From positions 1 to 13,110 of the forward strand of contig CALBSL010000120.1 of NCBI GenBank assembly GCA_937968025.1: a stretch of 13,110 nt of DNA, written 5' to 3'. Below the pieces are notes generated by a model. That model searched no databases. It saw nothing but the letters and a program-made list of their open reading frames with translations, and was not told the origin of the DNA. Shown one piece after another: positions 1-13,110 of this stretch (positions are counted from its first letter, which is position 1; each line of letters opens with the position of its first letter). This DNA comes from an uncultured bacterium (lineage in GTDB: Bacteria; Patescibacteriota; Patescibacteriia; 2-12-FULL-60-25). The position numbers and the translations under genes are program-made.

Positions 1-26
1 AGTTCAGACGTGTGCTCTTCCGATCT
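1..26 (+). other. Illumina TruSeq adapter remnant (artefact)
   Basis: The first 26 bases match the reverse complement of the Illumina TruSeq read-adapter (the part ending GCTCTTCCGATCT). The next nine bases (27-35, ACTCCAGTC) also match an adjacent adapter segment in the opposite orientation, so artefact may extend to about 35. This marks a raw, untrimmed contig end. Nothing in 1-35 should be read as coding. Confidence 0.96.
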
Positions 27-27
27 A

Positions 28-189: not shown

Positions 190-216
190 CAAAAGATCCC
201 GGTGGGGATCTTTTGT
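189..216. terminator. bidirectional intrinsic terminator
   Basis: A perfect 12-bp stem (ACAAAAGATCCC pairing with GGGATCTTTTGT) closes a four-base loop (GGTG). On the minus strand the stem runs into TTTTGTTATTT, a good U-rich tract. On the + strand it ends in TTTTGTG. It lies 9 nt after the stop of the minus-strand 767-residue gene and abuts the possible + strand stop at 187-189, so it probably ends both convergent transcripts. Confidence 0.85.
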
Positions 217-225
217 GTAGAGGCG

Positions 226-2529
226 TTAGCTCTCTTTATCAATCTCATCAAGCAGGTCGCTGAAATCCTCTGGGTTGAACTCACGGTCGGAGAGAGAGAC
301 CTCTGGACCGTCGTCGAGGTTGTTTTCTGCGCTTCTGACAAATGTGGGTGGGTTGTTCTGTTGCTGTTTCAAGAGAATCGTTGCTTTTGCTTGGAGCGTC
401 ACGAGAAGCAAGGAGGCGATGTTATTGAGCGTTCCTTCGCTTGCGTGCTCTGTGCTTGGCAGCCGAAGTTTCTTAAGGGAATCAACGATCAGCTGACGGA
501 GCGCCCTGTGTGTTTCTGGTCGTACGAGGGCTCGGTAGAGCTCAGCCGTAGGGCGTTCGCCGATCAGATCCTGCTCGATGCTCGGCAGAAACGGCATGTA
601 TCTACCCAACCGGTCCAGTCGGATAGCGCCTTCATCTTGCGAGCCAATGTCCCCAAGTAGGAGCTCGAAGGCCTCGTCAGCGATTTCGCTTGCAATTTTC
701 GTATCAACGACGTTTATATTTCGTTCGATAGAGAGGCGAGCTTCGTCCATCGCTTTATCGAGCATCGTTTGCGCTTCTTCGCGGGTATCGATTGAGCCGC
801 CGTCTCGCCACGGAGCTGCCTCAGGTGAGATGGCTTGCGTGTCTGGGGCCTCTTCTTCGTCTGAGAGGGTATTGTATCTCTCTGCAAACCCAGGAATGTC
901 CATCACGTTGTCGTAGTCTTCATAGCCCTTCATCCCATTTGTTCGCGAAGGTCCTGGCTTGGCGTACAACGGAGCAAGCTTTCGCAGGCTGGGCGATGAG
1001 GTGAGCGGGTTGAAATTGTACGAAAGGTCGCGATGAGAGATGCGAGGAGCGCTTGAATCCCATTGCGATTCGTCCGTTGTTTCCGCGACGACGGCTTCTC
1101 GTCCGCGAGGTTGAGAGCGATCACTTCGAAAGAGGCCAGCAGCACCACCGCCAGATCTTCCCAAGGTCCCAAGGTTTTTCGCATGTTCTGCACGGTCCCA
1201 ATCGGCGTCTTTTTTGGCGCGATAGTCCGCACTCGTCATCTCGAGTTGGTCGATCTGATCTTGAATGCGTTGCGCGTTGACCTCGGCGCTTACCAGGGCG
1301 GCCTGAGCCTCTTCTGCTTGCGTCCGAGTGTGCTCGTACTGTTCAAGGATGGCTTGTGGGCTGAGCTCTTCAACAATGTCGCCTGTTGGTCGTCCGCCGC
1401 TAAAGATCCCTTGCACGAAGCGGAACGGTCGGCTTAGTGCGGAGCCGATATTTTGTGCGGAGATGCGTAGACGGTCAAATGTTTCAAGGGTGCCGGCGAG
1501 GTACGCTTCGATTGGAACGCCCGTTTTTGCTTCAAACGTGTCCGCAATGGATTCGGCTTTCGCGTTGATTCTCTGTACCTGCACACGGGGATATTCGAGG
1601 AGAGCCTCCTGTTTGGCTTTCAGATCGCTGATCTGTACTCTCTGCAGGTCTCCGCCTGAGTTTTTATCTAGGTTGACGCCACGCTCTCGTTGTTCTCGTT
1701 CAGAGCGGGCAGCGTCCATTTCTTGTTTTGTGGCGAATCTCTTTTCGAGCGAGGGAGGGGTGGCCCGAGGCTTTCGCTCCCGTTGTTCTCGTTCAGAACG
1801 GGCAGCGTCCATTTCTTGCTTTGTAGCAAATTTCTTCTCGAGCGATGGAGGGATAGCCCGAGGCTTTTTCAAGTCTTTTTGGAATGCGGCAACCTCGCGA
1901 GCGAGTTCTTGATCGCGCTCATACCGGGCGAGTTCTCGTGGCGAGAGTTCGGTAAGATCGGCATCGGTCAAGTCGAGAGACTCGTCTACATTTTGCTTCG
2001 AAGCTGGGACAGATGCCCAGTTAGGAAACTCGTATTCGGACAGGTTTGGAAACGCAGGTGCTTCATCAGCAGCCTCCCAAAGCTCGCGTTCTGCTTCGAG
2101 GGATGGAGCAAAACGGTGCTTCGCCATCATTTTATTGCGGAAACGCGTCTCTGCGCCCTTCGCGAGCTGATCGGATTCGTTCTTGATGCGCTCTGCGCGA
2201 AGTTGATCATAACGATCCATCCGATCTGTGGATGGCGCGTCAACGTCAACGAGATCGCCATAGCTCAGTTCTGGGCCTTCGTGATCCTCCTGGGCGGCTT
2301 TTCGCTTAGATCCGTCTCGACCTAGTAGTGATTCACGCAACTGCGCAAGACGAAGCGGCGCTCGCTGAGCATTTTCTGCGATCTTCGCTCGGTAGGCGGC
2401 ACCCTTCCGGAGGCGCTCTTCGTTGAGCGCTTTCGTTCGAGCGATGCGCTCACTTGCAGGAAGCGCAGGATCTACATGCGGTAAACGCTTGTAGGTTGGT
2501 CGTTGTGGAGGGAGTCCTTCAAAGGGCAT
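226..2529 (-). CDS. large hydrophilic coiled-coil protein of unknown function (767 aa)
   Basis: This is a long uninterrupted frame with the moderate-GC codon use of its neighbours. No catalytic domain, signal peptide or clear membrane helix is visible. The protein is very rich in Glu, Arg, Lys, Asp and Ala. Helical or coiled-coil segments lie near residues 27-70, 195-320, 390-450 and 580-625. Two 31-residue tandem copies occupy 222-252 and 253-283. A Gly-rich linker lies near 455-465, and the C-terminus (738-767) is acidic, ending DLLDEIDKES. A helix-rich globular part may span 580-720. ATG at 2529 has no SD; TGTACTAAT, resembling an extended -10, lies about 11 nt upstream. The gene follows the rplT terminator and ends at its own terminator, so it is probably monocistronic. 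A structural or scaffold role is only a guess. Confidence 0.85.
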   Translation of the reverse strand: MPFEGLPPQRPTYKRLPHVDPALPASERIARTKALNEERLRKGAAYRAKIAENAQRAPLRLAQLRESLLGRDGSKRKAAQEDHEGPELSYGDLVDVDAPSTDRMDRYDQLRAERIKNESDQLAKGAETRFRNKMMAKHRFAPSLEAERELWEAADEAPAFPNLSEYEFPNWASVPASKQNVDESLDLTDADLTELSPRELARYERDQELAREVAAFQKDLKKPRAIPPSLEKKFATKQEMDAARSEREQRERKPRATPPSLEKRFATKQEMDAARSEREQRERGVNLDKNSGGDLQRVQISDLKAKQEALLEYPRVQVQRINAKAESIADTFEAKTGVPIEAYLAGTLETFDRLRISAQNIGSALSRPFRFVQGIFSGGRPTGDIVEELSPQAILEQYEHTRTQAEEAQAALVSAEVNAQRIQDQIDQLEMTSADYRAKKDADWDRAEHAKNLGTLGRSGGGAAGLFRSDRSQPRGREAVVAETTDESQWDSSAPRISHRDLSYNFNPLTSSPSLRKLAPLYAKPGPSRTNGMKGYEDYDNVMDIPGFAERYNTLSDEEEAPDTQAISPEAAPWRDGGSIDTREEAQTMLDKAMDEARLSIERNINVVDTKIASEIADEAFELLLGDIGSQDEGAIRLDRLGRYMPFLPSIEQDLIGERPTAELYRALVRPETHRALRQLIVDSLKKLRLPSTEHASEGTLNNIASLLLVTLQAKATILLKQQQNNPPTFVRSAENNLDDGPEVSLSDREFNPEDFSDLLDEIDKES
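1681..1866 (-). repeat. 93-bp tandem duplication, two copies, in frame
   Basis: Two adjacent 93-bp units (1774-1866 and 1681-1773) encode nearly identical 31-residue units. Each contains PPSLEK(K/R)FATKQEMDAA followed by RSEREQRER. Only two residues differ by my reading (Ile/Thr and Lys/Arg), while several synonymous third positions differ. That points to an older duplication kept under protein-level constraint rather than a recent slippage or assembly error. The unit is charged and helical. Confidence 0.92.
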
Positions 2530-2570
2530 AGAGGGAGAAGATTAGTACAGAGGCTACTATACCACATCCG

Positions 2571-2603
2571 CACAATACAAAACATCTCCGCAAGGGAGAT
2601 GTT
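2571..2603 (-). terminator. intrinsic terminator after rplT
   Basis: The 9-bp stem AACATCTCC / GGAGATGTT (2581-2589 and 2595-2603) has a five-base loop. On the minus strand it is followed by TTTTGTATTGT. It starts 5 nt after the rplT stop and would end the infC-rpmI-rplT transcript before the 767-residue gene. Confidence 0.85.
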
Positions 2604-2608
2604 ATTGT

Positions 2609-2950
2609 TTACGCCATCTTCACGATTTCGGCGAACACTGTTGGGTGCTTGCTGGCAAGTTCGGAAAGAATCTTGCGGTCGAGAATGATGTTGTTCTTCT
2701 TCAAGCCGCTGATGAGCTTGGAGTAGGTCGTGCCGTTGAGGCGAGCGCCCGCATTGATGCGGATCTGCTGCAACCCACGGTTGTCACGCTTCTTGAGCTT
2801 GCGGTCACGGTAGGCGTTGGCGCCGGCCTTGGTCGCAGCGGTTTTAGCGAGAGTGATTTTGCTCTTGCGCCCCCACATCATTCCTTTGGTGCGGGCCAAG
2901 ATATTCTTGCGTCGCTTGATGCGATGCATTCCACGTTTTACGCGAGGCAT
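2609..2950 (-). CDS. rplT: 50S ribosomal protein bL20
   Basis: The 113-residue product is a full-length bL20, which binds 23S rRNA early in large-subunit assembly. Family signatures are MPRVKRGMHRIKRRKNIL at the start, then a long basic helix with RKSKITLAKTAATKAGANAY and YRDRKLKKRDNRGLQQIRINA. The globular C-terminal part contains NGTTYSKLISGLKKNNI and LDRKILSELA. It lies 3 nt behind rpmI in the conserved infC-rpmI-rplT order. No SD precedes the ATG, so initiation probably relies on coupling to rpmI. In several bacteria bL20 represses this operon by binding its own mRNA, but I could not identify such a site here. Confidence 0.98.
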   Translation of the reverse strand: MPRVKRGMHRIKRRKNILARTKGMMWGRKSKITLAKTAATKAGANAYRDRKLKKRDNRGLQQIRINAGARLNGTTYSKLISGLKKNNIILDRKILSELASKHPTVFAEIVKMA

Positions 2951-2953
2951 AGA

Positions 2954-3148
2954 TTAGGCGTGAGGCATGAGTGACATGAGGTTGCGGACGTAGCGCTTCG
3001 ACACGGAGATGTCGCGGCGCTTGTTGCGCGAAACTTTTCCAGATTCGCGGCTGTTGAAGTGGTCTTGGCCACCCTTGCGCTTAAGGAGTTTTCCGGTCGC
3101 GGTAATTTGGATGCGTTTGGCTACGGTCTTTTTCGTCTTGAGTTTCAT
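2954..3148 (-). CDS. rpmI: 50S ribosomal protein bL35
   Basis: The 64-residue product starts MKLKTKKTVAKRIQITATGK and ends VRNLMSLMPHA, a standard bL35 of normal length. It contains the basic core KRKGGQDHFNSRESGKVSRNKRR. A longer frame upstream (to 3193) overlaps the end of infC and has no family similarity, so the start at 3148 is preferred. The start lies 1 nt after the infC stop, and no SD is visible (AAAATCTTAAT before ATG), which points to coupling with infC translation. Confidence 0.97.
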   Translation of the reverse strand: MKLKTKKTVAKRIQITATGKLLKRKGGQDHFNSRESGKVSRNKRRDISVSKRYVRNLMSLMPHA

Positions 3149-3149
3149 A

Positions 3150-3710
3150 TTAAGATTTTCGAGCGATGATAGCAGAGACGTTGCCACCGGCACGCGTCAC
3201 TGGCTGTTCGATCGAGAGTTGATAGAATCCCTGTAAAGCTTTGATGAAATCGTTAATGCGTTGGCTCGCGAGTTCACCGTGTTCTTTTTCACGTCCACGA
3301 AGCATGATTTCGATCTTGATCTTGTGGCCATCTTGGAAGAACTCCTTCGATTGCTCGAGACGGATGTTCAAATCATGTTGGCCCATCTTGACCGAAAGGC
3401 GAACGCCTTTGACGTCGACCTTCTTCGCGCGTGCTTTCTGAACACGAGCTTCCTTATCTTTTTGATACTTGAATTGGCCGTAGTCCAGAATGCGGCATAC
3501 CGGGGGGACCGCTTTCGGGGATACCTCGACCAAGTCGAAGCCACGTTCTTGCGCTAGGGAGATAGCCTTGTTTGTAGGCATTTCTCCGAGCATCTCGCCG
3601 TTCTCGTCAATGACGCGAACAGTAGGGACGAGAATCTGCTCATTCGCACGGAATTGCAGACCCTCTTCTTTCTTTTGTTGGCCGCCTCGGCGGCGATGAT
3701 GGATGCGCAT
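3150..3710 (-). CDS. infC: translation initiation factor IF-3
   Basis: The 186-residue product has both IF-3 domains. The N-domain (about 19-90) includes FRANEQI, VRVIDENGEMLG, ALAQERGFDLVEVSP-like sequence (here SLAQERGFDLVEVSP) and PPVCRILDYGQFKYQ. A basic Lys/Arg linker follows, then the C-domain (about 100-186) with KGVRLSVKMGQHDLNIRL and KIKIEIMLRGREKEH. IF-3 binds the 30S subunit, prevents premature 50S joining and checks start codons. Residues 1-16 are a short basic extension. The start is ATG, not the rare AUU used for autoregulation in enterobacteria. The 20 nt before ATG contain no SD. Confidence 0.98.
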   Translation of the reverse strand: MRIHHRRRGGQQKKEEGLQFRANEQILVPTVRVIDENGEMLGEMPTNKAISLAQERGFDLVEVSPKAVPPVCRILDYGQFKYQKDKEARVQKARAKKVDVKGVRLSVKMGQHDLNIRLEQSKEFFQDGHKIKIEIMLRGREKEHGELASQRINDFIKALQGFYQLSIEQPVTRAGGNVSAIIARKS

Positions 3711-3862
3711 CGTGAAAAAAGAATAACAGGAATGGGGCAGCCAAACGGCATGCCTACTCTATACACAACAAGTTATGTACAAGGGAGGCTGATCGTTGAG
3801 CGGACGCCTGAGGGGATTGGATGCAGAACCTGGTAGAGGTATGCGCCAATACTATCGAGCGT
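3711..3862 (-). other. 152-nt gap between tmRNA 3' end and infC
   Basis: No gene is seen. On the minus strand there is no U-tracted hairpin right after the tmRNA CCA end, so smpB-ssrA transcription may continue into infC. TATTCT, a weak -10-like hexamer, lies 9 nt before the infC ATG, but I found no matching -35. A short palindrome (GGCATGCC) is present. The gap could hold an infC leader or the tmRNA 3' processing region; sequence alone does not decide. Confidence 0.4.
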
Positions 3863-4266
3863 TGGTGGAGATGGGGGGAATCGCACCCCCGTCCGGACAT
3901 CACTCACCATGTCTTCATTCACAAGCATAGATAGCTCAAAGGGGGTCATGTACTCGTCGAGGAGCTATCGAGCAGAGTGCATCAAGTTCCAGCCAGAGTC
4001 CTCACGATACAGGAACAGCAGCGTGAGCAAGCCTCAAGAAGTTGGCGATGGTGCTCACCCAGAGGCGAGATGAACAGCATCGGCTCTGTCAGTCGCTATT
4101 ACGCGAGGACAGGAGCAGCGGCAGGGACACGGAACGCTTGCGCGAGCGCATCCTTGGCGCGAGTGACAACGTTGGCACGTAGTCGTGTATCGGTGGGGTT
4201 ACGGGCACACCGACATGTCCGGCTTGCAGATCATGGCAAGGAACGCCGTCGAAACTTAGCATCCCC
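3863..4266 (-). ncRNA. ssrA: transfer-messenger RNA (tmRNA)
   Basis: This 404-nt one-piece tmRNA frees ribosomes stalled on broken mRNAs and tags the product for proteolysis, acting with SmpB. The 5' end GGGGATG pairs with CATCTCC before the encoded ACCA 3' end, forming a 7-bp acceptor stem. Its third pair is G-U, the alanine identity element recognised by AlaRS. The family motif TTTCGACGG follows the acceptor. The T arm is GGGGG-TGCGATT-CCCCC; a typical loop begins TTC, so the second loop base is unusual. A tag frame lies in the middle (4176-4099). The 5' end is only 6 nt after the smpB stop, so the RNA is probably cut out of a joint transcript. Confidence 0.96.
4099..4176 (-). other. tmRNA tag-peptide reading frame (25 aa)
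   Basis: Within the tmRNA, a frame starting GCC AAC (Ala-Asn, as in most tags) runs 25 codons to tandem stops TAA TAG. The peptide begins ANVVTRAKDA and ends PAAAPVLA. The upstream CGACTACGT context resembles the region before the E. coli resume codon (ATAGTC). The hydrophobic Ala-rich end fits a protease degron, although the final residues are VLA rather than the common LAA. The length exceeds the usual 10-15 residues. The resume codon is inferred from motif similarity only. Confidence 0.7.
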
Positions 4267-4272
4267 GTATCG

Positions 4273-4722
4273 CTAATCAGCGTCACGGTCGCCACGAAGG
4301 ACGCGGCCCGCGAGGCGTTTGAGATCTCGTTCTTTGATAGAGGCGCGCTTGTCATGCAAGCGCTTCCCGCGGCCCAATCCAAAGAGGAGCTTAAAACGTC
4401 GACCAGAAGGATACACTCGAAGGGGGACCAATGTCAAGCCTTTTTCCTGCAATTTTCCCTTGAAATAGCCAAGTTCCTTCTTGTGAACCAGCAGTTTTCG
4501 GCTGCGGATGGGGTCATGAGCCTCCGGATGGCCCTGTTTTGGGTAGCGGGAGATATGTGCCCCGATGAGCCAAAGGCCATCGTGGAGGGGTTTGACGAAC
4601 GATCCCTCAAGCTTCATTGACCCAGCTCGAACGCTCTTTACTTCATCGCCGGAGAGCGCTAAGCCCGCCTCGCAGGTTTCGAGGATTTCGTATTCAAATC
4701 GGGCTTTTTTGTTTTCGACCAT
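4273..4722 (-). CDS. smpB: SsrA-binding protein SmpB
   Basis: The 149-residue product is full length for SmpB, which carries alanyl-tmRNA into the empty A site of stalled ribosomes. Family features are KKARFEYEILETCEAGLAL and SGDEVKSVRAG near the N-terminus, then LIGAHISRYPKQGHPEAHDP, RSRKLLVHKKEL, and the basic tail GRGKRLHDKRASIKERDLKR. That tail becomes helical in the mRNA channel. The gene directly precedes its RNA partner ssrA (6 nt). No SD is present. A promoter with its -10 ending 6 nt before ATG (4729-4757) suggests the mRNA starts at or next to the start codon. Confidence 0.98.
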   Translation of the reverse strand: MVENKKARFEYEILETCEAGLALSGDEVKSVRAGSMKLEGSFVKPLHDGLWLIGAHISRYPKQGHPEAHDPIRSRKLLVHKKELGYFKGKLQEKGLTLVPLRVYPSGRRFKLLFGLGRGKRLHDKRASIKERDLKRLAGRVLRGDRDAD

Positions 4723-4728
4723 GGGCGT

Positions 4729-4757
4729 AATCTAGCAATAGATGTGGGGGAGGACAA
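4729..4757 (-). promoter_or_regulatory. promoter of smpB-ssrA, leaderless geometry
   Basis: On the minus strand TTGTCC (4752-4757) and TAGATT (4729-4734) are separated by 17 nt; each matches four of six consensus bases. Only six bases (ACGCCC) separate the -10 from the smpB ATG, which puts the expected transcription start on or beside the start codon. No SD could fit in such a transcript. Confidence 0.6.
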
Positions 4758-4762
4758 GGGAC

Positions 4763-4791
4763 TTGCGCCTGCCTTCAAGAACCGATATTGT
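4763..4791 (+). promoter_or_regulatory. weak candidate promoter for the 65-aa gene
   Basis: TTGCGC (4763-4768) and TATTGT (4786-4791) are 17 nt apart, divergent from the smpB promoter. The -35 matches only three of six consensus bases and the -10 four. It would give a leader of about 15 nt containing the SD at 4803. Confidence 0.35.
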
Positions 4792-4812
4792 GAAAACGGA
4801 TTGGAGGAAACC

Positions 4813-5010
4813 ATGGCTGGTCAGTTCTGTCATTGTGTTCAGTGTGGCGGAAAGATCCTCGTGATCGATCACGATTCGAAGCCGAGATCGAACGGCACGG
4901 GTACCCTCGTGGCTCATGCGCCGCGGGTGAAGCCGGCTCGGTATCCCGTGGGAGAGGGAGCGTGGGTGGTCTCCACCAACCCATCCGGAGCATCTGAAGA
5001 CGAGCTCTAG
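4813..5010 (+). CDS. small Cys-containing protein of unknown function (65 aa)
   Basis: The frame begins at 4813 with a strong SD (GGAGG, 4803-4807) and ends at a TAG that touches an intrinsic terminator, so it is a complete small gene. The N-terminus MAGQFCHCVQCGGKI carries Cys6, Cys8 and Cys11 (CxCxxC) and His7, which resembles half of a zinc-binding knuckle. No second Cys pair follows. The rest is polar with basic and Pro residues (KPRSNGTG, VKPARYPVG) and ends in acidic SEDEL. No signal peptide or membrane segment is visible. A longer frame from 4744 exists but its extra residues lack an SD. It is transcribed divergently from smpB. Metal binding is plausible but unproven, and I do not recognise the family. 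Confidence 0.7.
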   Translation: MAGQFCHCVQCGGKILVIDHDSKPRSNGTGTLVAHAPRVKPARYPVGEGAWVVSTNPSGASEDEL

Positions 5011-5036
5011 TCCTTCCGTTGGAGGGATTTTTTATT
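5011..5036 (+). terminator. intrinsic terminator after the 65-aa gene
   Basis: TCCTTCC pairs with GGAGGGA (one G-U pair) around a three-base loop, followed by TTTTTTATTTC. It starts at the base after the stop codon. Confidence 0.85.
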
Positions 5037-5065
5037 TCAATGTATTCCGGAAACGGAGGGTCTTG

Positions 5066-5074
5066 TGCTATGAT
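5066..5074 (+). promoter_or_regulatory. extended -10 promoter of the envelope-gene run, leaderless geometry
   Basis: TGCTATGAT is an extended -10 (TGn plus TATGAT, five of six consensus bases). Six bases (GGGTTC) then lead to the ATG at 5081. No convincing -35 is present at 17-18 nt, which extended -10 promoters tolerate. The implied transcript begins at the ATG. Confidence 0.6.
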
Positions 5075-5080
5075 GGGTTC

Positions 5081-6121
5081 ATGCCTCCTTCTCGCGTTCC
5101 CTCACATGACCTGTCTTTTTTGAGCCTTTTCCGGGTGGTTCTGGTGGGTTTGAGCTTGATCGTCGCCTGGCAAATTCAGGATATTTTACTGTACTGCTTT
5201 CTCGCTATTCTGCTAGCGGGAGTGATCTACCCGTTTGCGAACTGGGGTCTCCGCTATCGTATCCCGAAGATTGTCTCCGTTTTGGTGATTTATGTTGGAT
5301 TATTTAGCTTGCTCGCACTGATCGTCACGCTCCTCGTGCCGGCGCTCGTGGGCCAGTCTCAGGCGCTGGTTGAAACGTATGGGGCGTCGTTGGGGAATTG
5401 GGCAAAGGGGATTCGCGATTCTCGTTTGCTCGAGCAACTCGGCATTGTTCCAGGCGGAGGAGAGGCGCCCACCGTTTCGAATATTCAAGGACAGATCCAG
5501 TCGCTGGTCACGAATGCGTTCTCCGTTGTTTCGAGTATTTTTGGGGGGATCGCAGGGTTCGTGGTGGTGCTCGTGCTCGCGCTCTACGTCGTGATCGAGG
5601 ATTCTGCCATCAAAAAGTTGTTTCATCACTGGGTTCCGAAGGCGTACCAGGAGTTTTCGACCCGGTTAGTGTGGCTCGTGATGCAGAAGCTGGGGGCGTG
5701 GATGCGTGGTCAGCTCATGCTGTGTCTCATTATTGGTGTGCTCAGCTTGATCGCCTATGCTTTGCTCGGGGTTCCGTACGCGTTACTTCTCGCCGTCATT
5801 GCTGGGCTATTTGAGTTCGTGCCGTACATCGGTCCTATCCTTGCGGGGATCCCAGCGGCGTTGATCGCTTTCACGGTGTCCCCAGCCCTCGGACTGGCGA
5901 CGCTTGGAGCGATGATCATTATTCAACAGCTTGAAAACAACCTGATTGTTCCGAAGGTGATGCAGAAAACGGTGGGGTTAAACCCGATCGTGAGCATCTT
6001 GGCCTTTTTGATCGGGGCAAAGCTGTTCGGGATTGTTGGAGCGATCGTGTCTATTCCTGTCGCGATCGCGATCCAGGTAGCGCTCTCGGAATGGAGTGAA
6101 TTCAGTCGGTCGCGCGAATAG
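5081..6121 (+). CDS. AI-2E family (PerM/YdiK/TqsA-type) membrane transporter
   Basis: The 346-residue polytopic inner-membrane protein belongs to the AI-2E transporter family (PF01594). Hydrophobic segments lie near 16-35, 37-56, 65-88, 152-174, 208-230, 232-275 and 295-335. A soluble loop spans about 92-150. Family landmarks are GVPYALLLAVIAGLFEFVPY followed by IGP (230-252), QQLENNLIVPKVM (282-294), and a C-terminal GIVGAIVSIPVAIAIQV. Members are proposed to move signalling molecules, or ions and protons, but substrates are mostly unknown, so none is assigned. ATG 5081 is preferred over TTG 5063 because an extended -10 lies between them. It is the first gene of an envelope run and the next gene starts 5 nt after its stop. 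Confidence 0.92.
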   Translation: MPPSRVPSHDLSFLSLFRVVLVGLSLIVAWQIQDILLYCFLAILLAGVIYPFANWGLRYRIPKIVSVLVIYVGLFSLLALIVTLLVPALVGQSQALVETYGASLGNWAKGIRDSRLLEQLGIVPGGGEAPTVSNIQGQIQSLVTNAFSVVSSIFGGIAGFVVVLVLALYVVIEDSAIKKLFHHWVPKAYQEFSTRLVWLVMQKLGAWMRGQLMLCLIIGVLSLIAYALLGVPYALLLAVIAGLFEFVPYIGPILAGIPAALIAFTVSPALGLATLGAMIIIQQLENNLIVPKVMQKTVGLNPIVSILAFLIGAKLFGIVGAIVSIPVAIAIQVALSEWSEFSRSRE

Positions 6122-6126
6122 CGTTT

Positions 6127-6471
6127 ATGACTTCCCGAACGCTTCTCGTGTGTTGCGGCGTTGCTGCGTTGATCACCGGTGGGGGGAGTGTTTGGTATCT
6201 GACTCGTTCGCTGCCCGCAGAAACGGTCGTCATGCGCTCACCTGAAGAGATCCGGCGGCAGTGGCAAGAAGGGGTGAGGGAAGTCGTTCGTCGCTACCCG
6301 AACGAAGTTTCTGCGATACAAGCCCGTGATGAGCTTCTCGGATTCACGGTGCCGGCAGAGCATCGAAGCGTGCACTTGGGTTTGGTGCTTGCGCTTGAGG
6401 CGGCTATTCAGCAGCGGACAGATGCTTCGCAGCGCTGGATTCAGGCGACGGAGGCCTTTCAAGGTCTATGA
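6127..6471 (+). CDS. single-TM protein of unknown function (114 aa)
   Basis: Residues 5-25 form one hydrophobic helix (LLVCCGVAALITGGG), a signal anchor or signal peptide. The remainder is a helical, charged domain of about 85 residues (EEIRRQWQEGVREVVRRYP, then AIQARDELLGF and LGLVLALEAAIQQR). It probably lies outside the membrane. The start is 5 nt after the previous stop with no SD, and its stop overlaps the next start by 4 nt (ATGA), so all three genes are translationally linked. I do not recognise the family. Confidence 0.75.
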   Translation: MTSRTLLVCCGVAALITGGGSVWYLTRSLPAETVVMRSPEEIRRQWQEGVREVVRRYPNEVSAIQARDELLGFTVPAEHRSVHLGLVLALEAAIQQRTDASQRWIQATEAFQGL

Positions 6472-7241
6472 ACGCGCTGATTCTCCGCATCTCTCCCATG
6501 TTGGTGGGAATCTCCACCTATTTTCTGTTTGAATGGCAGTGGCGCGTTCCGCTCGCGTACCCTTGGGCGCTGCTTGCGGCGACGGGGCTCTACGTTGTTC
6601 TGGTTTTACGCATGGTGTGGCCACGGAGTGATCGTTGGGTCATGCTGTGGAATGCGCTCCCGATGGTCTGTTTTTTGCTGGCGGCAACGGTGTGCGCGGT
6701 CATGTTGGAAGAATCGTTTTGGCGTCATGCGCTCTCGGTATTTACGGGGTTGACCTCATACATGGCGCTTGAACTCTTGTTTTTGCACTTATTTCATTCG
6801 TCTCGCTACCCGGTGAACGGATTGACGCATCTTCAGCTTGGACTTATTCCGCTAACGAACGCCTTGCTCGCGTGGGGGTTGGTGGGCGTTCGCGTCTTCG
6901 CCAAAGCTATAGCGCCACCCGCCTGGAGCGTGCCGGTGGTGTTCGCCTGTGTGAATGCGCTGGCGTTTGCGGTGACGTCGCATCCTGATGCTTCGCCGTA
7001 TGCACGCCGGATTTGGATCGTGTTTGCGGCTTTTTCTGGGTTTAGCATCGGACTTTTGTTACTGTTTCTTCCGCTCGCGATGCCGGCGCAAGCCTTTATT
7101 GCGGCGTTGCTGATCGCTCTCCCATTGCGTCTACGACGGTATGGGTTCCGGCCCGCGCTTGGGCTCTCTACGGCGTTGCTCGAGGGTGGACTGGCGCTCA
7201 TCGCCTTTTTGGCCGTGCTTCTCCTCTCGCGCTGGGCGTAG
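6468..7241 (+). CDS. polytopic membrane protein of unknown function (257 aa)
   Basis: The protein is almost entirely hydrophobic, with about eight predicted membrane helices. These lie near 8-22, 30-50, 60-82, 88-110, 122-146, 153-170, 185-210 and 235-255. Short basic loops (LRLRRYGFRP, DASPYARR) suggest cytosolic faces. The start overlaps the preceding stop (ATGA), a sign of co-translation. No transporter or enzyme motif is recognised. Together with the 114-residue protein it may form a small membrane complex, by gene order only. Confidence 0.78.
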   Translation: MNALILRISPMLVGISTYFLFEWQWRVPLAYPWALLAATGLYVVLVLRMVWPRSDRWVMLWNALPMVCFLLAATVCAVMLEESFWRHALSVFTGLTSYMALELLFLHLFHSSRYPVNGLTHLQLGLIPLTNALLAWGLVGVRVFAKAIAPPAWSVPVVFACVNALAFAVTSHPDASPYARRIWIVFAAFSGFSIGLLLLFLPLAMPAQAFIAALLIALPLRLRRYGFRPALGLSTALLEGGLALIAFLAVLLLSRWA

Positions 7242-7247
7242 GAATTG

Positions 7248-7256
7248 TGGTAGTGT
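7248..7256 (+). promoter_or_regulatory. possible internal extended -10 promoter, leaderless geometry
   Basis: TGGTAGTGT (TGn plus TAGTGT, three of six consensus bases) lies six bases (ATACGC) before the ATG at 7263. No -35 is seen. It is weak alone, but it repeats the exact 6-nt spacing found at smpB and the AI-2E-type gene. Confidence 0.4.
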
Positions 7257-7262
7257 ATACGC

Positions 7263-8408
7263 ATGTCTTCTGCATCAGATTCCCCGGTATTTCCGTGGCG
7301 TTCGTTTGTTCAGGTTTCGCTGAGCGTTCTTTTGGCGGTCGCTGGTGCCGTGATCGCGGTGCAGCCATCGCTTGATCGTCTTAGTCAGGCGGTGCTTCGG
7401 CTCGAGGCGCGCGTGGCGACCACGACTCGTGAAACGCCGGTTGAGCCTATTTCTTTGCAACGCACCGACGTGTACCCGGGGCTTCCGGCGGCGCTTCGTG
7501 TGGGTCGTGCCTCGCCAACATTGCCGCTGTTTCGTCTCGATGGTCGCAGTGCTGATGATCTGTTGTTTGCGGCAGAAAGCAGCGTGTCGGCAGTAGCGGT
7601 GACGGGAGATGGTTGGCTCGTGACGTCTGGCCTCGGTATGACGCCGGCTCGTCTTGGTGATCTGGCGATCGGTTGGAAGGGGAAGCTCTATACGCCTGAT
7701 CGAGTGATTCGCGACACGTCGACAGGTTTGGCGTATCTCAAAATTGCGGCCACCGATCTTCCTGCGGCGGCGCTTGCGGCGCGCGTGGATGTCGAGATTG
7801 GCGAGCCGGTGTGGCTCGAAGCAGCAGCGCAACAGTACGCACCAAATGCCCTGGTGCGATTAGGGATGGCCACCACAACACAGTCCACCTTTTCAAGCGA
7901 CCAGTGGAATCGTCGATATATTCTTGCCGCGCCAGCGGTAGGATCGTTTGCGTCCGTATGGAACGAGCGTGGACAGTTGGTCGGCTTGGCCGAAGGAGGG
8001 AAGGGGGAAGTCCTCCCTGCAGACGCCGTGCGCTCAGCGCTCACGAGCCTGCTCAATCGTGGAGAGATTCGCCGTCCGACACTCGGGGTTCGTTATGTAG
8101 ATGTCTCTGAAACCTACAGCCGATCAACGGATCGAGCGATGCCACAAAAAGGCGCGCTCCTTCGTGCGGAAAAACGCGGGGCGCTTCCAGCGGTTGCAGC
8201 AACGAGCCCCGCAAAGAATGTCTTGCGAGAAGGGGACGTGATTGAACGTATTGATCGCGATATTCTTGACGGTACCTGGACGCTCGCTGAACGTGTTCTC
8301 GAATATTTGCCGGGTGCCTCGGTGACGATCGGCGGACTTCGTGAAGGCAAACCCTTCGAAGCGCGCGTGACCTTTGGCGAGGTGCGCACGAGTGAAATAC
8401 TCAAATAA
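7263..8408 (+). CDS. HtrA/DegP-like pseudoprotease with PDZ domain
   Basis: The 381-residue protein has an N-terminal anchor (about 14-33), a linker, a trypsin-like HtrA fold (about 95-270) and a PDZ domain (about 272-372). The fold is clear from order and spacing: GDGWLVTSG, YTPDRVIRDTSTGLAYLKI, then VWNERGQLVGL and SLLNRGEIRRPTLGVRYVDV. The catalytic positions are changed. The His of the usual TNNHVV is Leu124 (TSGLGM). The Asp of TDLA is Gly155 (TGLA). Around the Ser, GNSGGP is VGSFAS, keeping Ser228 but losing the Gly pair that shapes the oxyanion hole. It should therefore lack peptidase activity and may act as an extracytoplasmic scaffold or chaperone binding C-termini through PDZ. The assignment is by eye. 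The start has no SD, and Wzz follows after 7 nt. Confidence 0.85.
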   Translation: MSSASDSPVFPWRSFVQVSLSVLLAVAGAVIAVQPSLDRLSQAVLRLEARVATTTRETPVEPISLQRTDVYPGLPAALRVGRASPTLPLFRLDGRSADDLLFAAESSVSAVAVTGDGWLVTSGLGMTPARLGDLAIGWKGKLYTPDRVIRDTSTGLAYLKIAATDLPAAALAARVDVEIGEPVWLEAAAQQYAPNALVRLGMATTTQSTFSSDQWNRRYILAAPAVGSFASVWNERGQLVGLAEGGKGEVLPADAVRSALTSLLNRGEIRRPTLGVRYVDVSETYSRSTDRAMPQKGALLRAEKRGALPAVAATSPAKNVLREGDVIERIDRDILDGTWTLAERVLEYLPGASVTIGGLREGKPFEARVTFGEVRTSEILK

Positions 8409-8415
8409 CCTTTGT

Positions 8416-9033
8416 ATGATAACGCTCTTTCTCCAACGACTTGAACGTGAGTGGCCTCGACTCCTGTGGGGTGGATTTCTGGGTGTGGCGTTTCTCGCCT
8501 CGCTCTCGTTTGCGCTCCCCAAACAGTTCAGTTCCACGATGCGCTTGCTCGTGGTGCAGGCGAATGTGGCGGGGCTCGATCCGTATACTGCCGTAAAATC
8601 GACGGAACAGATTGCGGGGAGCGTGCGCGAGCTGACCTATACTTCGCTGGTGGCAAACCGGGTGTTGAGCGAAACAGACGGTCTCGATACCGAGTATTTT
8701 CCTGAGGATGAGTATCGACGTCGACGCACGTGGCAAAAAACGGTGGAGGTGGGGCTTGTCCCCGGAACCGGTATTTTGACGGTGACCGTCTTTCATCCGG
8801 AGCGAGATCAGGCTCGGCGCTTAGTCGAAGGGGTGGCGCGGCAGATTATTGAGCAGACCCCCAACTTTGGCTACAACGCCCAGGCAAAGGTGATCGATAC
8901 GCCGCTCCCATCGCGCTGGTTCGCTCGTCCCGATATTGTGTTAAATGGGCTCTTTGGAGGGCTGATTGGCGTATTTTTGGCTCTGTTATCACTCTTTTTT
9001 AAGGAAATCCCCGCGCGTCGGAAGGGTCGGTAG
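8416..9033 (+). CDS. Wzz/YveK-like polysaccharide chain-length or export co-protein
   Basis: The 205-residue protein has the Wzz-type layout. A short cytosolic N-terminus precedes TM1 (about 18-34). An extracytoplasmic part (35-172) contains LVVQANVAGLDPYTAVKSTEQIA and HPERDQARRLVEGVARQI. A Pro-containing stretch (TPLPSRWFARP) precedes TM2 (about 174-196), and the tail is short and basic (KEIPARRKGR). Such proteins set polymer length or help export surface polysaccharide. There is no attached tyrosine-kinase domain, as in Gram-positive YveK/CapA types. ATG 8416 is 7 nt after the pseudoprotease stop; a longer frame from 8374 overlaps that gene and is rejected. No SD is present. It is the last gene before the terminator at 9058. 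Confidence 0.82.
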   Translation: MITLFLQRLEREWPRLLWGGFLGVAFLASLSFALPKQFSSTMRLLVVQANVAGLDPYTAVKSTEQIAGSVRELTYTSLVANRVLSETDGLDTEYFPEDEYRRRRTWQKTVEVGLVPGTGILTVTVFHPERDQARRLVEGVARQIIEQTPNFGYNAQAKVIDTPLPSRWFARPDIVLNGLFGGLIGVFLALLSLFFKEIPARRKGR

Positions 9034-9057
9034 GGAAGAAAAGGGGTGGGGATGCCG

Positions 9058-9086
9058 GCGAGCCCTTGACAAGGCTCGCTATTTTT
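9058..9086 (+). terminator. intrinsic terminator ending the envelope-gene run
   Basis: The 7-bp perfect stem GCGAGCC / GGCTCGC (9058-9064 and 9073-9079) has an 8-nt loop and is followed by TATTTTT. It lies 25 nt after the Wzz-like stop. Confidence 0.88.
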
Positions 9087-9094
9087 GATACATT
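9066..9094 (+). promoter_or_regulatory. candidate sigma70-type promoter inside the terminator
   Basis: TTGACA (9066-9071, perfect -35) is followed after 17 nt by TACATT (9089-9094, four of six -10 bases). The -35 sits in the loop of the terminator hairpin and the U-tract forms part of the spacer. If used, transcription would start near 9101 and give a leader of about 256 nt for the gene at 9357. The overlap may be chance, or the assembly may be joined nearby. Confidence 0.5.
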
Positions 9095-9148
9095 TAGACA
9101 TCTTTTAGGGAGGAAAGTCTCGATTCTCAGCTTACCATCTGAATGGCA

Positions 9149-9336
9149 CTGAAGCCGTTCCGTTCCTCAGCGTCTCGTCACGCTGGGCGTATGGGACGGC
9201 TTCAGGGCCCTTCGCGCCTTGATTCCGATGATGGTCATCGGAATGGAGGCGATAGGAGCCTCGCATCTTTCGCTGTTTTCACCGTTTGTCCCGTACGACG
9301 TTCGTGCGGGTCACCAATCACGGCCGTTTCCCGGCC
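9149..9336 (+). promoter_or_regulatory. hairpin-rich stretch upstream of the beta-barrel gene
   Basis: No gene is supported in the 323 nt between 9034 and 9356, but this part is dense in inverted repeats. Hairpin 1 is a 13-bp stem (9149-9161 with 9193-9205, one G-U) enclosing a 6-bp stem (9168-9173 with 9180-9185). Hairpin 2 is a perfect 10-bp stem (9222-9231 with 9235-9244) and 3-nt loop. Hairpin 3 is 5 bp (9246-9250 with 9258-9262). Hairpin 4 is 8 bp (9290-9297 with 9303-9310). Hairpin 5 is 5 bp (9322-9326 with 9332-9336). None has a U-tract, so they look like a structured leader or RNA rather than terminators. The SD (GGAGGT, 9344-9349) follows unpaired. Confidence 0.6.
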
Positions 9337-9356
9337 ATCAATCGGAGGTTTCGATC

Positions 9357-10826
9357 ATGAAGAAGGTCCTCGCCCTCGCGGGCATGGTGCTCGTCTCTTT
9401 CCTCATTCCCGCCACGGCGGGCGCGCAGCAGGCCGACTTCGGCGCGCTGCGCAGCTCCGTCGCGGCCTGCAGCGGTGTGGCCGGCCCGTCCAACGGGTCG
9501 GCGACCTGCTCGCAGTGGGTCGCCCTCGCCAACTGCATCACGCAGCAGGCGAGTGCGGCCAGCCCCTCCGACGCTGGCCCGACCTGCGGCGGCCTCGCCG
9601 CCCAGGCGGTGACGGCCCTCGACCAGGCCGAGGCCGTGTGCCGCGCCGACGCCGCGGCGAGCCGTCGCGACCGCGACGCGCTCGCCGCCCTCCGCGGCGA
9701 GCTCACCACCGCTCGCGAGGAGCTGGCCACGTGCCGGCACGAGCTCGCGACCCGTCGCACCCCGCCGGTGCGCCCCTCGGGGCGAAACCAGCCCCTCCGC
9801 TTGCCGGTGTGCATCGGCGGCGACTACGGAGGGAACGCCAACCTCTGGTGCGAGACCCGCGCCGGACAGGAGCTGCTCGGCGACGCCTGCCGCAACCACG
9901 AGCGTGCCGACCTGACCAAGGCCGGCTGCCAGTGCCCCGTGGGCGCGGTCCCGATGGAGCCCGGTCGTCAGGCGGTCGACGCCGACGGTGACCGCATCCG
10001 CGGGTACTTCTGCGTTGCGGTGTTCGGGGGCTCGTCCACCAACTCCGCCGAGCGGGTGGAGATCCGCCCCGAGGCCGCTTCCGACCCGAACGTGGGCGAG
10101 CGCCTCGCCGAGATGGACGGGCGGCTCAACGCCCTCACTCGTCGTGTGGCGGCGGTGGAAGAGCGGGCCCGCAACGCCGAGCGAGTCGGTGCTGCCACGG
10201 TCCGCCTCACGCAGGAGTGGTGCCGGCTTCCCGCCGGAACCATGCCCACGCCTGAGAACTGCCCCCGCGCGCGGCTCCTCGAGGGCTTGAACCTCCCGGC
10301 GTCCGCCGCGGCGGCGCCCCAGGTCACCGTCGAGCACGGGGTGTCCGTTGGTGCGCTGGTCGTCCTGCGCGGCAACGGCCACACCTCCTACGCGGGGTGG
10401 GCCGGCTACCAGGTCGGTCTGCCGCTCAACCGCAGTGGAAGCATCCGTCTCGGCCTCGGGGTGTCGGCGGTGTTCGGTGACTACGGAGCCACCATCAACC
10501 GCGACATCTTCGGGTACGCGGCCGCCCTCGACCTCAGCTTCCGACTGACCGAGGCGTTCCGCCTCGGACCGGTCGTGCGGTACGTCCACTTCCTCGACAT
10601 CGGCGGCCAGGACATCACCCTCCCGGGGTTCGGCCCCGATCGCGGCGTGAGCGTCTTTGGCGGGCTCTTTGCCGAGCTGGACTTCGGTACCAGCGGCTTC
10701 TTCGGTCGCGGCGAGCTCCTCGGCGGTCCCTCCCAGACCATCGAGCGGTTCCAGAACGGCCGCGGGATCGAGGCCAGCTGGTCGGCGGCCTTCATGCCCA
10801 CGATCAGCATCGGCTACCGCCGCTGA
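9357..10826 (+). CDS. secreted Cys-containing coiled-coil protein with C-terminal beta-barrel (489 aa)
   Basis: ATG 9357 follows SD GGAGGT by 7 nt and opens a classic signal peptide (MKKVLALAGM..., cleavage after AGA23). A longer frame from 9219 adds 46 residues that hide the signal and cross the hairpins, so it is rejected. Mature parts in order: a Cys-rich N-domain (Cys38, 51, 60, 77, 95, 126) with an Arg/Glu/Ala coiled coil at about 97-133; a second Cys domain (152-219: Cys152, 165, 178, 191, 193, 219); another coiled coil (245-285); Cys289 and Cys302; then about 325-489 with eight amphipathic beta segments and aromatic girdles (GYQVGLPL, IRLGLGVSAVF, YAAALDLSFRL, VVRYVHFL) ending MPTISIGYRR. 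This looks like an 8-stranded outer-membrane barrel with a periplasmic coil. I know no matching family. GC3 is near 93% over the first 44 codons. Confidence 0.85.
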   Translation: MKKVLALAGMVLVSFLIPATAGAQQADFGALRSSVAACSGVAGPSNGSATCSQWVALANCITQQASAASPSDAGPTCGGLAAQAVTALDQAEAVCRADAAASRRDRDALAALRGELTTAREELATCRHELATRRTPPVRPSGRNQPLRLPVCIGGDYGGNANLWCETRAGQELLGDACRNHERADLTKAGCQCPVGAVPMEPGRQAVDADGDRIRGYFCVAVFGGSSTNSAERVEIRPEAASDPNVGERLAEMDGRLNALTRRVAAVEERARNAERVGAATVRLTQEWCRLPAGTMPTPENCPRARLLEGLNLPASAAAAPQVTVEHGVSVGALVVLRGNGHTSYAGWAGYQVGLPLNRSGSIRLGLGVSAVFGDYGATINRDIFGYAAALDLSFRLTEAFRLGPVVRYVHFLDIGGQDITLPGFGPDRGVSVFGGLFAELDFGTSGFFGRGELLGGPSQTIERFQNGRGIEASWSAAFMPTISIGYRR

Positions 10827-10842
10827 ACCCCGCCCTGTCCCT

Positions 10843-10875
10843 GCGGAGCGCCCATCTTCGGATGGTGCGCTCCGC
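10843..10875 (+). terminator. GC-rich terminator hairpin with TTCG tetraloop
   Basis: Stem GCGGAGCGC / GCGCTCCGC (9 bp) continues through CCATC / GATGG (5 bp) with one bulged T at 10866, closing the very stable C(TTCG)G tetraloop. CTCTTCTTC follows, a pyrimidine-rich but poor U-tract. It lies 16 nt after the beta-barrel gene stop. The remaining 135 nt to the lipoprotein start hold weaker inverted repeats (GGGTGC/GCACCC, CCAGC/GCTGG) and no clear promoter. Confidence 0.75.
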
Positions 10876-11010
10876 CTCTTCTTCGAGAAGATCATCAATC
10901 GATGGCCTCCTCAAAGAAGGGTGCTTCATCCTTCGCGTTCCTTTCCACCTTGCACCCTCAGGCAAGAACGTTCCGCACCGTGCCAGCCGGATAGCTGGAG
11001 GAGGTCTCTC

Positions 11011-12255
11011 ATGGCGACGAAGCTCATCAGTCTCACCCTCTCCGCCCTCCTCGCCTACGCCCTTGCGGGCTGCGGCGGGGTCTACAGCACCAACGGCGCC
11101 ACCGGCACGACCGGCGAGGCCTGCGGGCGGGGGGAGGCCTTGCCCTCCCCGACGTGCAACGGCCGCAGCAGCTGCGTCGCGGGCTATGTCCCCGGCGTCG
11201 TCTGCACCGCGAGCGGTCGCTTCGGCGACTGCACCTGCGTCCCCGGCACCGCCGCGGACGCCGGCACCACCCCGGCCACCGGCGTCTGCACCGACAGCGA
11301 GACGAGGTATAACCCCGCGCTCGCCTGCCCGGCGGGTCGCGTCGGCTACCAGACCTGCCGCTACGGCGTCTGGACGGCCAACGAATGCGTCGCCGACCTC
11401 GGCGGCGCCCGGATCTGCGTCCCGAACTCGCCGACGATGAACTCGTGCATGACCTGCTCGAGCGGCTACATCGCCCAGCAGCGCTGCAGCGCCGACGGCC
11501 GCTCCTACGCGGCCTGCGAGTGCGTGTGGAACGGCTCGACCGGTACCACGTGCACCCCCGGCGTCTCCCGCGGCAGCTGCAACCCCTGCGCCAGCGGCTC
11601 TGCCGCAGGCAACGACGTCTGCAGCCCCAACGGGATGGGGTACACCTGCCAGCTCGCCGCTGGCGCAAGCTGCCCGTCCTCGGGCGGCAACTGCACCAAC
11701 GGCACGACGCAGTCCTGCAGCATCACCTGCGCGGGCGGCACGTCCGTCACCGGCACTCAGACCTGCAACAGCGGTGCCTGGACCGCCTGCCCCGCCGTCT
11801 GCACCAACATGACCGGCGGTGACCAGATGGCCCAGCTCCAGCTCGATCCCAACGTCTGGCGCTACGCCAACCTCTCGAACGGCACGGAGTTCTGCACCAC
11901 CTCGCAGCTCAACGTCCGTTTCTTCGACGGCAACGGGCAGCAGGTCCGCTCACCCATCACCATGAACCGGTCGATGGTCGTGCGCGCGTGGAAGGCGGGC
12001 TCTCTCCGTGCCGACGTTGTGTGCGGTGACTCTGCGGAGGCTCCGCTCCACCCCGCCTTCTACAACGGCACGATCAGCGCCGGGCAGGTCCTCTCGGGTT
12101 CTCGTGGCGGCATCGTCGCTTCGGTGACCGGCGGTGTCAGCACCAGCGCGATGGCGAGCCAGGTCGGCACCCTGCGGTTCTGCAACGCGCCCGGCGGCAT
12201 CAAGCTCGAGCTCGCGATCGACCCCGACATGGTCGGTCGCTGCATCAATCAGTGA
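11011..12255 (+). CDS. Cys-rich lipoprotein with repeated cysteine modules (414 aa)
   Basis: ATG 11011 follows SD GGAGGAGG; the longer frame from 10657 overlaps the previous gene and is rejected. The N-terminus ends in lipobox LAGC (Cys21), so the protein should be lipid-anchored in the envelope. There are 33 Cys in all. Five modules of about 20-27 residues repeat the spacing C-x(9-11)-C-x(7-9)-C. They are Cys55-65-74-76, 106-116-126, 149-159-169-171, 193-204-213 and 240-252-260. Two share C-xxGY-x5-C-xxxGR-...-CxC, and others carry GYQTCRYGVW or GTQTCNSGAWTAC. Residues 265-414 form a separate domain with four Cys (295, 338, 391, 411). Similar Cys patterns occur in secreted proteins of Myxococcota and relatives. 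Disulfides are likely; function is unknown, possibly adhesion or surface structure. Confidence 0.88.
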   Translation: MATKLISLTLSALLAYALAGCGGVYSTNGATGTTGEACGRGEALPSPTCNGRSSCVAGYVPGVVCTASGRFGDCTCVPGTAADAGTTPATGVCTDSETRYNPALACPAGRVGYQTCRYGVWTANECVADLGGARICVPNSPTMNSCMTCSSGYIAQQRCSADGRSYAACECVWNGSTGTTCTPGVSRGSCNPCASGSAAGNDVCSPNGMGYTCQLAAGASCPSSGGNCTNGTTQSCSITCAGGTSVTGTQTCNSGAWTACPAVCTNMTGGDQMAQLQLDPNVWRYANLSNGTEFCTTSQLNVRFFDGNGQQVRSPITMNRSMVVRAWKAGSLRADVVCGDSAEAPLHPAFYNGTISAGQVLSGSRGGIVASVTGGVSTSAMASQVGTLRFCNAPGGIKLELAIDPDMVGRCINQ

Positions 12256-12262
12256 CCGCCAC

Positions 12263-12309
12263 TGCCCCGGTGAGACTTCCTTCAAGGAAGCTCTCACCGG
12301 GGCACTTTT
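12263..12309 (+). terminator. strong intrinsic terminator after the lipoprotein gene
   Basis: A 13-bp perfect stem (TGCCCCGGTGAGA / TCTCACCGGGGCA, 12263-12275 and 12292-12304) continues as six further pairs across one bulged base, to a 3-nt loop. CTTTTCATTTTG follows. It begins 7 nt after the stop. Stem and bulge layout resemble the hairpin at 10843. Confidence 0.92.
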
Positions 12310-12329
12310 CATTTTGTGACCTCGCAGCA

Positions 12330-12358
12330 TTGACGAAGGGCGAGATACGTGGTACAAC
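12330..12358 (+). promoter_or_regulatory. candidate promoter of the last gene
   Basis: TTGACG (12330-12335, five of six -35 bases) and TACAAC (12353-12358, four of six -10 bases) are 17 nt apart. Transcription would start near 12365, giving a leader of about 42 nt with an AAGGA site at 12394-12398. The same type and spacing occur at 9066-9094. Confidence 0.55.
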
Positions 12359-12406
12359 CAGGGACCCCCAAGGATGGCCAATACGGGGTAGGGAAGGAAC
12401 GCAGGG

Positions 12407-13110
12407 ATGTTCATTCGATCGATCTTCCAGACGGTTCTCGCTTCGGTCCTCATCGCTTCGATGGCGTCTGCGCAGACGTCCACCAACGCAACCGGCTCGC
12501 TCTCTACGACGCCACTCGCGGTCCTGGCGGCAGGTCAGATGGTCTCGCCGCCCTCTGATCCTCGGGTTCGGATTCCTCAGGAGGACGGGGGGTGGCGGCC
12601 TCCGCTCGTGCTGACGTACGTAGCCCCTCCTCCGTCGACGCCGGAGCCGACGCCCGAAGACCCCGCTGCGGCCGCTCGCGAGACGGCCGCCGCTCGACGT
12701 CTCCGCCTCCGCGCCCACGCGCAGACCATCTGCGAGCGAACGGAGCGCGACACGGCCCTCAGAGAGGCCTGCATCGCCTGCGCGTCGCGCGGCGAGACCC
12801 ACGTCTGGCTCGGCCAGAACGATGCGTCGATCGACTACCTCCGCACGCTCGCGAGCATGCAGAATCAACCGCTCACGGAGTTCCGCTGCCAGGATCGTCG
12901 CCATCGGCGAACGATGACCCTCATGGGCGAGCTTGCGCATCGCTTCCAGGACGTCGAGCGGCGAGTGAGTGTCGCACAGACCCAGATCGCCGGCCTCCGG
13001 GATGCGCAGGGGTCCATCGAGCCTCGGCTCATGCCGCGGCTCGTCCAGCTGGCGCTCGCCGCCCACCTCCGCACCCATCTCGAGAGCGAGGTGACGACAA
13101 CGGAAGCTCG
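12407..13110 (+). CDS. secreted coiled-coil/Pro-rich protein, 3' end beyond window
   Basis: The frame opens at ATG 12407 behind AAGGA (8 nt) and stays open for 234 codons to the window edge. The first 22 residues are a signal peptide (MFIRSIFQTV..., cleavage at ASA22 before Gln23). As in the beta-barrel protein, Gln follows the cleavage site. A Pro/Thr-rich stretch lies near 70-86 (APPPSTPEPTPEDP). An Ala/Arg helix-rich region follows with Cys pairs (ICERTERD, ACIACASRGE, FRCQDRR) and heptad-like segments (HRFQDVERRVSVAQTQIAGL). This resembles the coil-plus-Cys part of the protein at 9357 and might be a shared architecture. A barrel could lie past the edge. Codon use is GC-rich but less extreme than in the two genes before it (33 of the first 44 codons end in G or C). 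Confidence 0.78.
   Translation, partial: MFIRSIFQTVLASVLIASMASAQTSTNATGSLSTTPLAVLAAGQMVSPPSDPRVRIPQEDGGWRPPLVLTYVAPPPSTPEPTPEDPAAAARETAAARRLRLRAHAQTICERTERDTALREACIACASRGETHVWLGQNDASIDYLRTLASMQNQPLTEFRCQDRRHRRTMTLMGELAHRFQDVERRVSVAQTQIAGLRDAQGSIEPRLMPRLVQLALAAHLRTHLESEVTTTEA

Follow-up and report, generated by a model that had tools for sequence, protein, structure and literature searches.

HtrA-like proteins with a dismantled catalytic triad, encoded behind a DUF5656-like membrane protein in Patescibacteria

Introduction

The HtrA/DegS/DegQ proteases constitute the family S1C of MEROPS. The only bacterial HtrA pseudoproteases that we found in the open-access literature are those of magnetotactic bacteria, with MamO as the nearest precedent for the protein described here, an HtrA-like protein with a dismantled catalytic site (pseudo-HtrA). 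It is encoded in a 13,110-nucleotide stretch of an uncultured patescibacterium (GenBank assembly GCA_937968025.1, contig CALBSL010000120.1, positions 1–13,110, forward strand; hereafter, the window). MamO, a pseudoprotease derived from HtrA, binds metal via two His residues and is described as confined to magnetotactic alpha-proteobacteria (PMC4794232). The protease-deficient DegP S210A restored the growth of a pertactin-making Escherichia coli degP deletion strain (PMC5023192), so an HtrA body can serve folding without proteolysis.

Pseudo-HtrA shares with HtrA, DegS, and DegQ the fold, a single PDZ domain at the C terminus, and the LGV motif, and like DegS it has a membrane helix at the N terminus, but it lacks the catalytic His and Asp, the GNSGGP motif, and any histidine. 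The DUF5656-like membrane protein encoded next to it (hereafter, MEM) also has its gene beside part of the triad-bearing HtrAs in the phylum. MamO is likewise an HtrA-derived pseudoprotease, belongs to a membrane-organelle gene set, and has active relatives alongside; however, its catalytic residues are in place and its loop is inactive, and its range is that of magnetotactic alpha-proteobacteria, whereas the window protein contains no His and its family recurs in a patescibacterial order and its class. DegP S210A is similar as an HtrA body that functions without proteolysis but is an engineered laboratory mutant, whereas pseudo-HtrA is natural and carries a membrane helix. No report of a pseudo-HtrA family in Patescibacteria or of DUF5656 was found in the open-access literature. 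The best overall explanation, to which we assign a probability of about 0.5, is that pseudo-HtrA is a true pseudoprotease working as a membrane-anchored PDZ chaperone or adaptor, which lost proteolysis and kept its MEM partner.

Fold and catalytic site of pseudo-HtrA

The structural model, the fold search, and sequence matches to Pfam and PDB all gave a chymotrypsin-like fold followed by a PDZ domain, as had been proposed in an earlier note made from the letters of the window. The layout is DegS-like, with one membrane helix, one protease-like domain, and one PDZ domain. Active-site columns were assigned by alignment to seven triad-bearing HtrAs. Leu124 and Gly155 occupy the columns of the catalytic His and Asp; the nucleophile column holds Ser228, followed by Phe-Ala instead of the Gly-Gly of HtrAs, and VGSFAS stands in place of GNSGGP. 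These are the very letters on which the earlier note had based its observation of a dismantled triad. Since the protein (381 residues) contains neither His nor Cys, a Ser-His-Asp triad is absent from the whole chain, which rules out an intact triad elsewhere in it. We therefore consider it near certain that pseudo-HtrA is catalytically dead, that is, unable to cut by such a triad: as an HtrA protease it fails on the triad, and as an HtrA fold it stands. A His located two residues before the catalytic column in some members of the wider class (L112, L124, L125, L129, and L131) was out of register.

The PDZ motif and the helix were retained. Leu274-Gly275-Val276 falls on the conserved LG(V/I) of HtrA PDZ domains, presumably the carboxylate-binding loop, and Gly275 was kept in all 61 rows of the family alignment and all 38 rows of the class alignment described below. 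A membrane-like N-terminal helix was present in 60 and 38 of these rows, respectively.

Distribution among relatives and signs of selection

A protein search, in which 7999 candidates were scored, yielded 26 relatives at E < 1e-38 and one ordinary HtrA at 4e-4. Eight genome contigs carried pseudo-HtrA, seven of them titled Uhrbacteria and one only Patescibacteria. Within the Uhrbacteria order, 34 of the 41 genomes gave a match of more than 200 bits, and two more had fragments at contig ends. The family alignment combined 27 proteins and 34 genome loci (61 rows, P0027 and L028 being the same gene and P0001 and P0002 being 99% alike). Frames were taken from stop to stop, with a few extra residues before the start in some rows. 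No family row retained the catalytic His; three retained both Asp and Ser.

Beyond the order, 40 class genes from 39 genomes (G067 twice) were picked by hand from the printed matches, 20 of higher score and 20 near the low end. The catalytic His was missing in 38 of them, and the remaining two were ordinary HtrAs. The ranking used a profile of the pseudo form and thus favors it; 340 of the 380 genomes searched had a match at 1e-12 with ordinary HtrAs mixed in, and no class-wide frequency was derived. Asp116-Gly117-Trp118, Asp151, Glu186, Ser212, and Trp233 were invariant across the family rows. All 38 class rows had Asp116 and Gly117, whereas 36 had Asp151 and 33 had Trp118; Glu186 and Trp233 were not kept.

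The ratio of nonsynonymous to synonymous substitution rates (dN/dS) was near 0.07 in the two closest of the seven gene pairs compared and 0.13–0.18 in three more divergent pairs with near-saturated dS; two pairs were not computable. Pseudo-HtrA is under purifying selection in close pairs. Since the loss of the triad recurs family-wide and the close pairs are under such selection, it is no private error of the window, and chance or error was ruled out as its cause. Repurposing as a MamO-like metal-binding protein has a precedent in MamO itself (PMC4794232), but a surface di-histidine site of that kind is impossible in a protein without His (or Cys). Decay into a functionless gene, in turn, is at odds with low dN/dS and intact frames. 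Both explanations are thus very improbable, although a metal site built of carboxylates is still conceivable.

Relationship to triad-bearing HtrAs

The earlier note had advised looking for an active paralog. In six of eight related genomes, the genome of the window not being among them, a full-length, strongly matching Trypsin_2 protein with His, Asp, and Ser in place was found (L009–L014). The paralog in G002 was cut by a contig end and stood outside the triad reading, as did further Trypsin_2 matches in the eight genomes (L017–L022). G003 had no Trypsin_2 match besides pseudo-HtrA.

Such paralogs could suggest that pseudo-HtrA regulates an active HtrA through mixed trimers or competition for ligands, in the manner of the active and inactive proteases paired in magnetotactic bacteria, where MamO but not its triad is needed for MamE-linked proteolysis (PMC4794232). 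A triad-bearing HtrA, MEM, and a pseudo-HtrA are consecutive in L169 (1140–4256), and L168 has, about 1.4 kb downstream, an HtrA whose His and Asp are in place and which the edge of the stretch truncates ahead of the Ser. In all six genomes read, however, the triad-bearing copy sits on another contig or stretch, and G003 and G002 offer no other copy and only a truncated one, respectively. We consider this regulatory role unlikely.

In a tree built without the triad columns, the Uhrbacteria rows formed one group (Shimodaira–Hasegawa-like approximate likelihood ratio test (SH-aLRT) support of 100). Triad-bearing HtrAs grouped together with or without a MEM neighbor, and several MEM-linked HtrAs with partial sites branched beside them. 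In a smaller set, all 10 ordinary HtrAs were on one side of a starred branch. The class rows L117, L119, L120, L123, and L126 were left out as too long-branched; L135–L137, L150, L155, L162, L163, and the loci from L164 on were not in the tree, and L139, which has all three triad residues, was labeled among the inactive ones.

Gene order around pseudo-HtrA

The gene order in the window is AI-2E family transporter, small anchored protein, MEM, pseudo-HtrA, and Wzz-like gene (Table 1). In the Uhrbacteria order, MEM adjoins pseudo-HtrA in 33 of 34 loci and the Wzz-like gene does so in 33 of 34, the exceptions being G001, where MEM is inverted and about 7 kb off, and L043, respectively. In the further class loci, MEM adjoins in 37 of 38, the last one stopping at a contig edge, and Wzz was found in only 13, two of the 38 having less than 750 bases of downstream sequence. 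Both profiles were built on the very loci counted with them; a MEM profile from the Uhrbacteria order alone already matched 18 of the first 20 class loci. Nine HtrA loci (L009–L015, L128, and L130), of which eight are triad-bearing and one is truncated, had no MEM within stretches reaching at most about 1.5 kb to either side.

TABLE 1. Features of the pseudo-HtrA locus in the window.
Feature	Position	Strand	Remarks
AI-2E family transporter, upstream gene of the module	5063..6121	+	Pfam PF01594, E 3.7e-61
Small anchored protein	6127..6471	+	4-base overlap with the start of MEM; relatives are found again in the operon at some of the class loci
DUF5656-like membrane protein (MEM), constant upstream partner	6468..7241	+	Eight helices of at least 16 residues in the model; predicted local distance difference test (pLDDT) 93.0
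Pseudo-HtrA gene	7263..8408	+	381 aa, counting the stop; membrane helix at the N terminus, then a degenerate chymotrypsin-like domain and a single PDZ domain
N-terminal long helix, likely membrane anchor	7296..7421	+	Residues 12–53; DSSP of the model; hydropathy window 2.4 at residue 15
Protease-like domain	7587..7988	+	Residues 109–242; Pfam Trypsin_2 match just under the cut-off
Leu124 in the catalytic His column	7632..7634	+	His in 0/61 family rows
Gly155 in the catalytic Asp column	7725..7727	+	Asp in 9/61 family rows
Ser228-Phe229-Ala230 replacing Ser-Gly-Gly (nucleophile, oxyanion loop)	7944..7952	+	Ser in 13/61 family rows
Leu274-Gly275-Val276	8082..8090	+	Aligned with the conserved LG(V/I) of HtrA PDZ domains
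PDZ core	8178..8372	+	Residues 306–370; Pfam PDZ_2 match under the cut-off
Wzz-like protein gene, downstream	8416..9033	+	Starts 7 bases past the pseudo-HtrA stop

Nine of 23 MEM family members matched DUF5656 (PF18900) at E ≤ 0.1 (best 2.7e-10), the window copy giving no match, and the MEM relative in L140 exceeded the cut-off of this model (25.1 vs. 23.3 bits). Judging from these sequence matches, MEM appears to be a distant relative of DUF5656. Its confident model matched no solved fold in the fold search.

The Wzz-like neighbor raises the possibility that pseudo-HtrA is a structural subunit of a polysaccharide co-polymerase system that scaffolds or gates the Wzz-like protein and sets chain length. 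Besides the tight linkage within the order, 14 of 16 Wzz-like family members matched Pfam Wzz (PF02706) at E ≤ 1 (best 2.5e-7; no match for the window copy), and genes resembling, by eye, glycosyltransferases and sugar epimerases follow in L098, L103, and L105. But Wzz accompanies few of the class loci compared with MEM, and L140 has MEM and Wzz without any HtrA, which makes such a subunit improbable. Polysaccharide is not supported as the main link, since Wzz is frequent only in the Uhrbacteria order and MEM is frequent in both sets; the tie is at most that of one lineage. The suggestion of the earlier note that an inactive HtrA is preserved in an envelope operon agrees with the selection in close pairs and the recurring gene order, and a non-proteolytic sensing or holding role near a membrane complex is plausible; the polysaccharide machinery, which it had named as an example, gained no general support.

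Another apparently single-pass protein recurs before MEM (L096 1520–2215, L098 1369–2103, L005 8330–9031, and others). Its Pfam matches were sub-threshold and varied by member (DUF4179, LmeA, and DUF2140).

Genes encoded behind MEM in the phylum

A search starting from MEM found it in 40 of 145 genomes of the phylum, including at least three of the Uhrbacteria order. The next gene encoded an HtrA homolog without the catalytic His in 19 genomes and one with His, Asp, and Ser in 10, of which L139 has an altered oxyanion motif. Among the His-less homologs, Ser was kept in L138 and L148, and Asp with Ser in L146 and L154. In four genomes (L144, L152, L172, and L173), the same slot was taken by a SurA/PpiC-type isomerase, unrelated in fold and possibly equivalent in function. 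Six loci had Wzz (L140), SAICAR synthetase (L142), another protein (L166), or some other or no near same-strand gene of more than 110 residues (L156, L158, and L164). The last genome is the displaced case G001.

Tentatively, and with less confidence than in the chaperone or adaptor role itself, we propose that MEM together with a folding factor makes up an envelope module of Patescibacteria that has not been described before, with a folding-factor slot interchangeable between triad-bearing HtrA, triad-lost HtrA, and SurA-like isomerase. The window protein would then represent a switch from protease to pure chaperone with a constant operon partner, and the homologs would line up as a natural series that begins with active sites, passes through partial ones (His lost, with Ser or both Asp and Ser retained), and ends with sites dismantled completely.

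Composition of the flanking parts of the window

The G+C content climbs after the Wzz-like gene, from 0.55 to more than 0.7 in the window (9100–13110), from about 0.4 to 0.58 in L005, from about 0.48 to 0.67 in L003, and slightly in L007. The corresponding regions are L001 12210–16767, L003 12975–14648, L005 14825–16728, L006 13469–14398, and L007 12064–14431; L008 has similar open reading frames (ORFs) on the far, upstream side (1–3015). By eye, the ORFs after the Wzz-like gene resemble signal-peptide proteins that have coiled coil and barrel-like ends, as well as myxobacterial-style lipoproteins that are Cys-rich or carry DxDxDG repeats; two ORFs tested had no telling Pfam match. The composition break near 9100 at first resembled a misjoin. 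Since genes for secreted proteins of high G+C content follow Wzz in other Uhrbacteria loci, a real island is likelier than a chimeric contig. Neither window ORF of this part matched the loci fetched by then (best E 0.82), and a misjoin near 9100 is still conceivable. The region 5063–9033, the gene order of which recurs in other loci, would be untouched by it. On the minus strand, 226–2529 holds an ORF of 767 residues, charged and rich in coiled coil by eye, with no clear Pfam match.

Discussion

The retention of pseudo-HtrA beside the same membrane protein suggests that it is a non-cutting helper of MEM. Because the PDZ motif and the helix were kept and MEM stands beside triad-bearing and triad-less HtrAs alike, this help probably consists in keeping hold of exported segments at the membrane or passing them on there. 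A folding role fits, since isomerases occupy the same slot after MEM. Most likely, the protein originated from an HtrA whose gene directly followed that of a polytopic, DUF5656-like membrane protein, and the pairing outlasted the catalytic site. In the membrane-anchored chaperone or adaptor that we favor, the PDZ domain would grip exported proteins by segments that are C-terminal or unfolded, and the body would dock on the DUF5656-like protein, which would present clients to the envelope or insert them into it. In Uhrbacteria, the Wzz-like protein encoded next door may be one client or partner.

Several points weigh against this explanation. Chaperone function is marked by no sequence feature, the PDZ groove was assessed via a single motif, and gene adjacency shows no physical contact between pseudo-HtrA and MEM. 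The membrane helix is nothing special, as eight of nine ordinary HtrAs without a MEM neighbor score alike. The four isomerases behind MEM could be unrelated neighbors, and six of the 40 MEM loci have no folding factor. For three of the His-less homologs behind MEM (L150, L155, and L168), Pfam at E 0.01 finds the PDZ and misses a trypsin domain, and their kinship rests on our own profile. Finally, deep branches of the tree had SH-aLRT support of only 80–94 and several rows were long, so the triad may have been lost once or several times, and descent from a MEM-linked active HtrA is no more than likely.

With 34 of 41 Uhrbacteria-order genomes and recurrence in the class, this family of HtrA pseudoproteases is wider than the magnetotactic cases. 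It reveals which parts of HtrA are worth retaining without proteolysis, and, with a constant membrane partner named, the chaperone side of HtrA becomes testable apart from its protease side. It may also mark an envelope module in a group of bacteria with a poorly understood cell surface.
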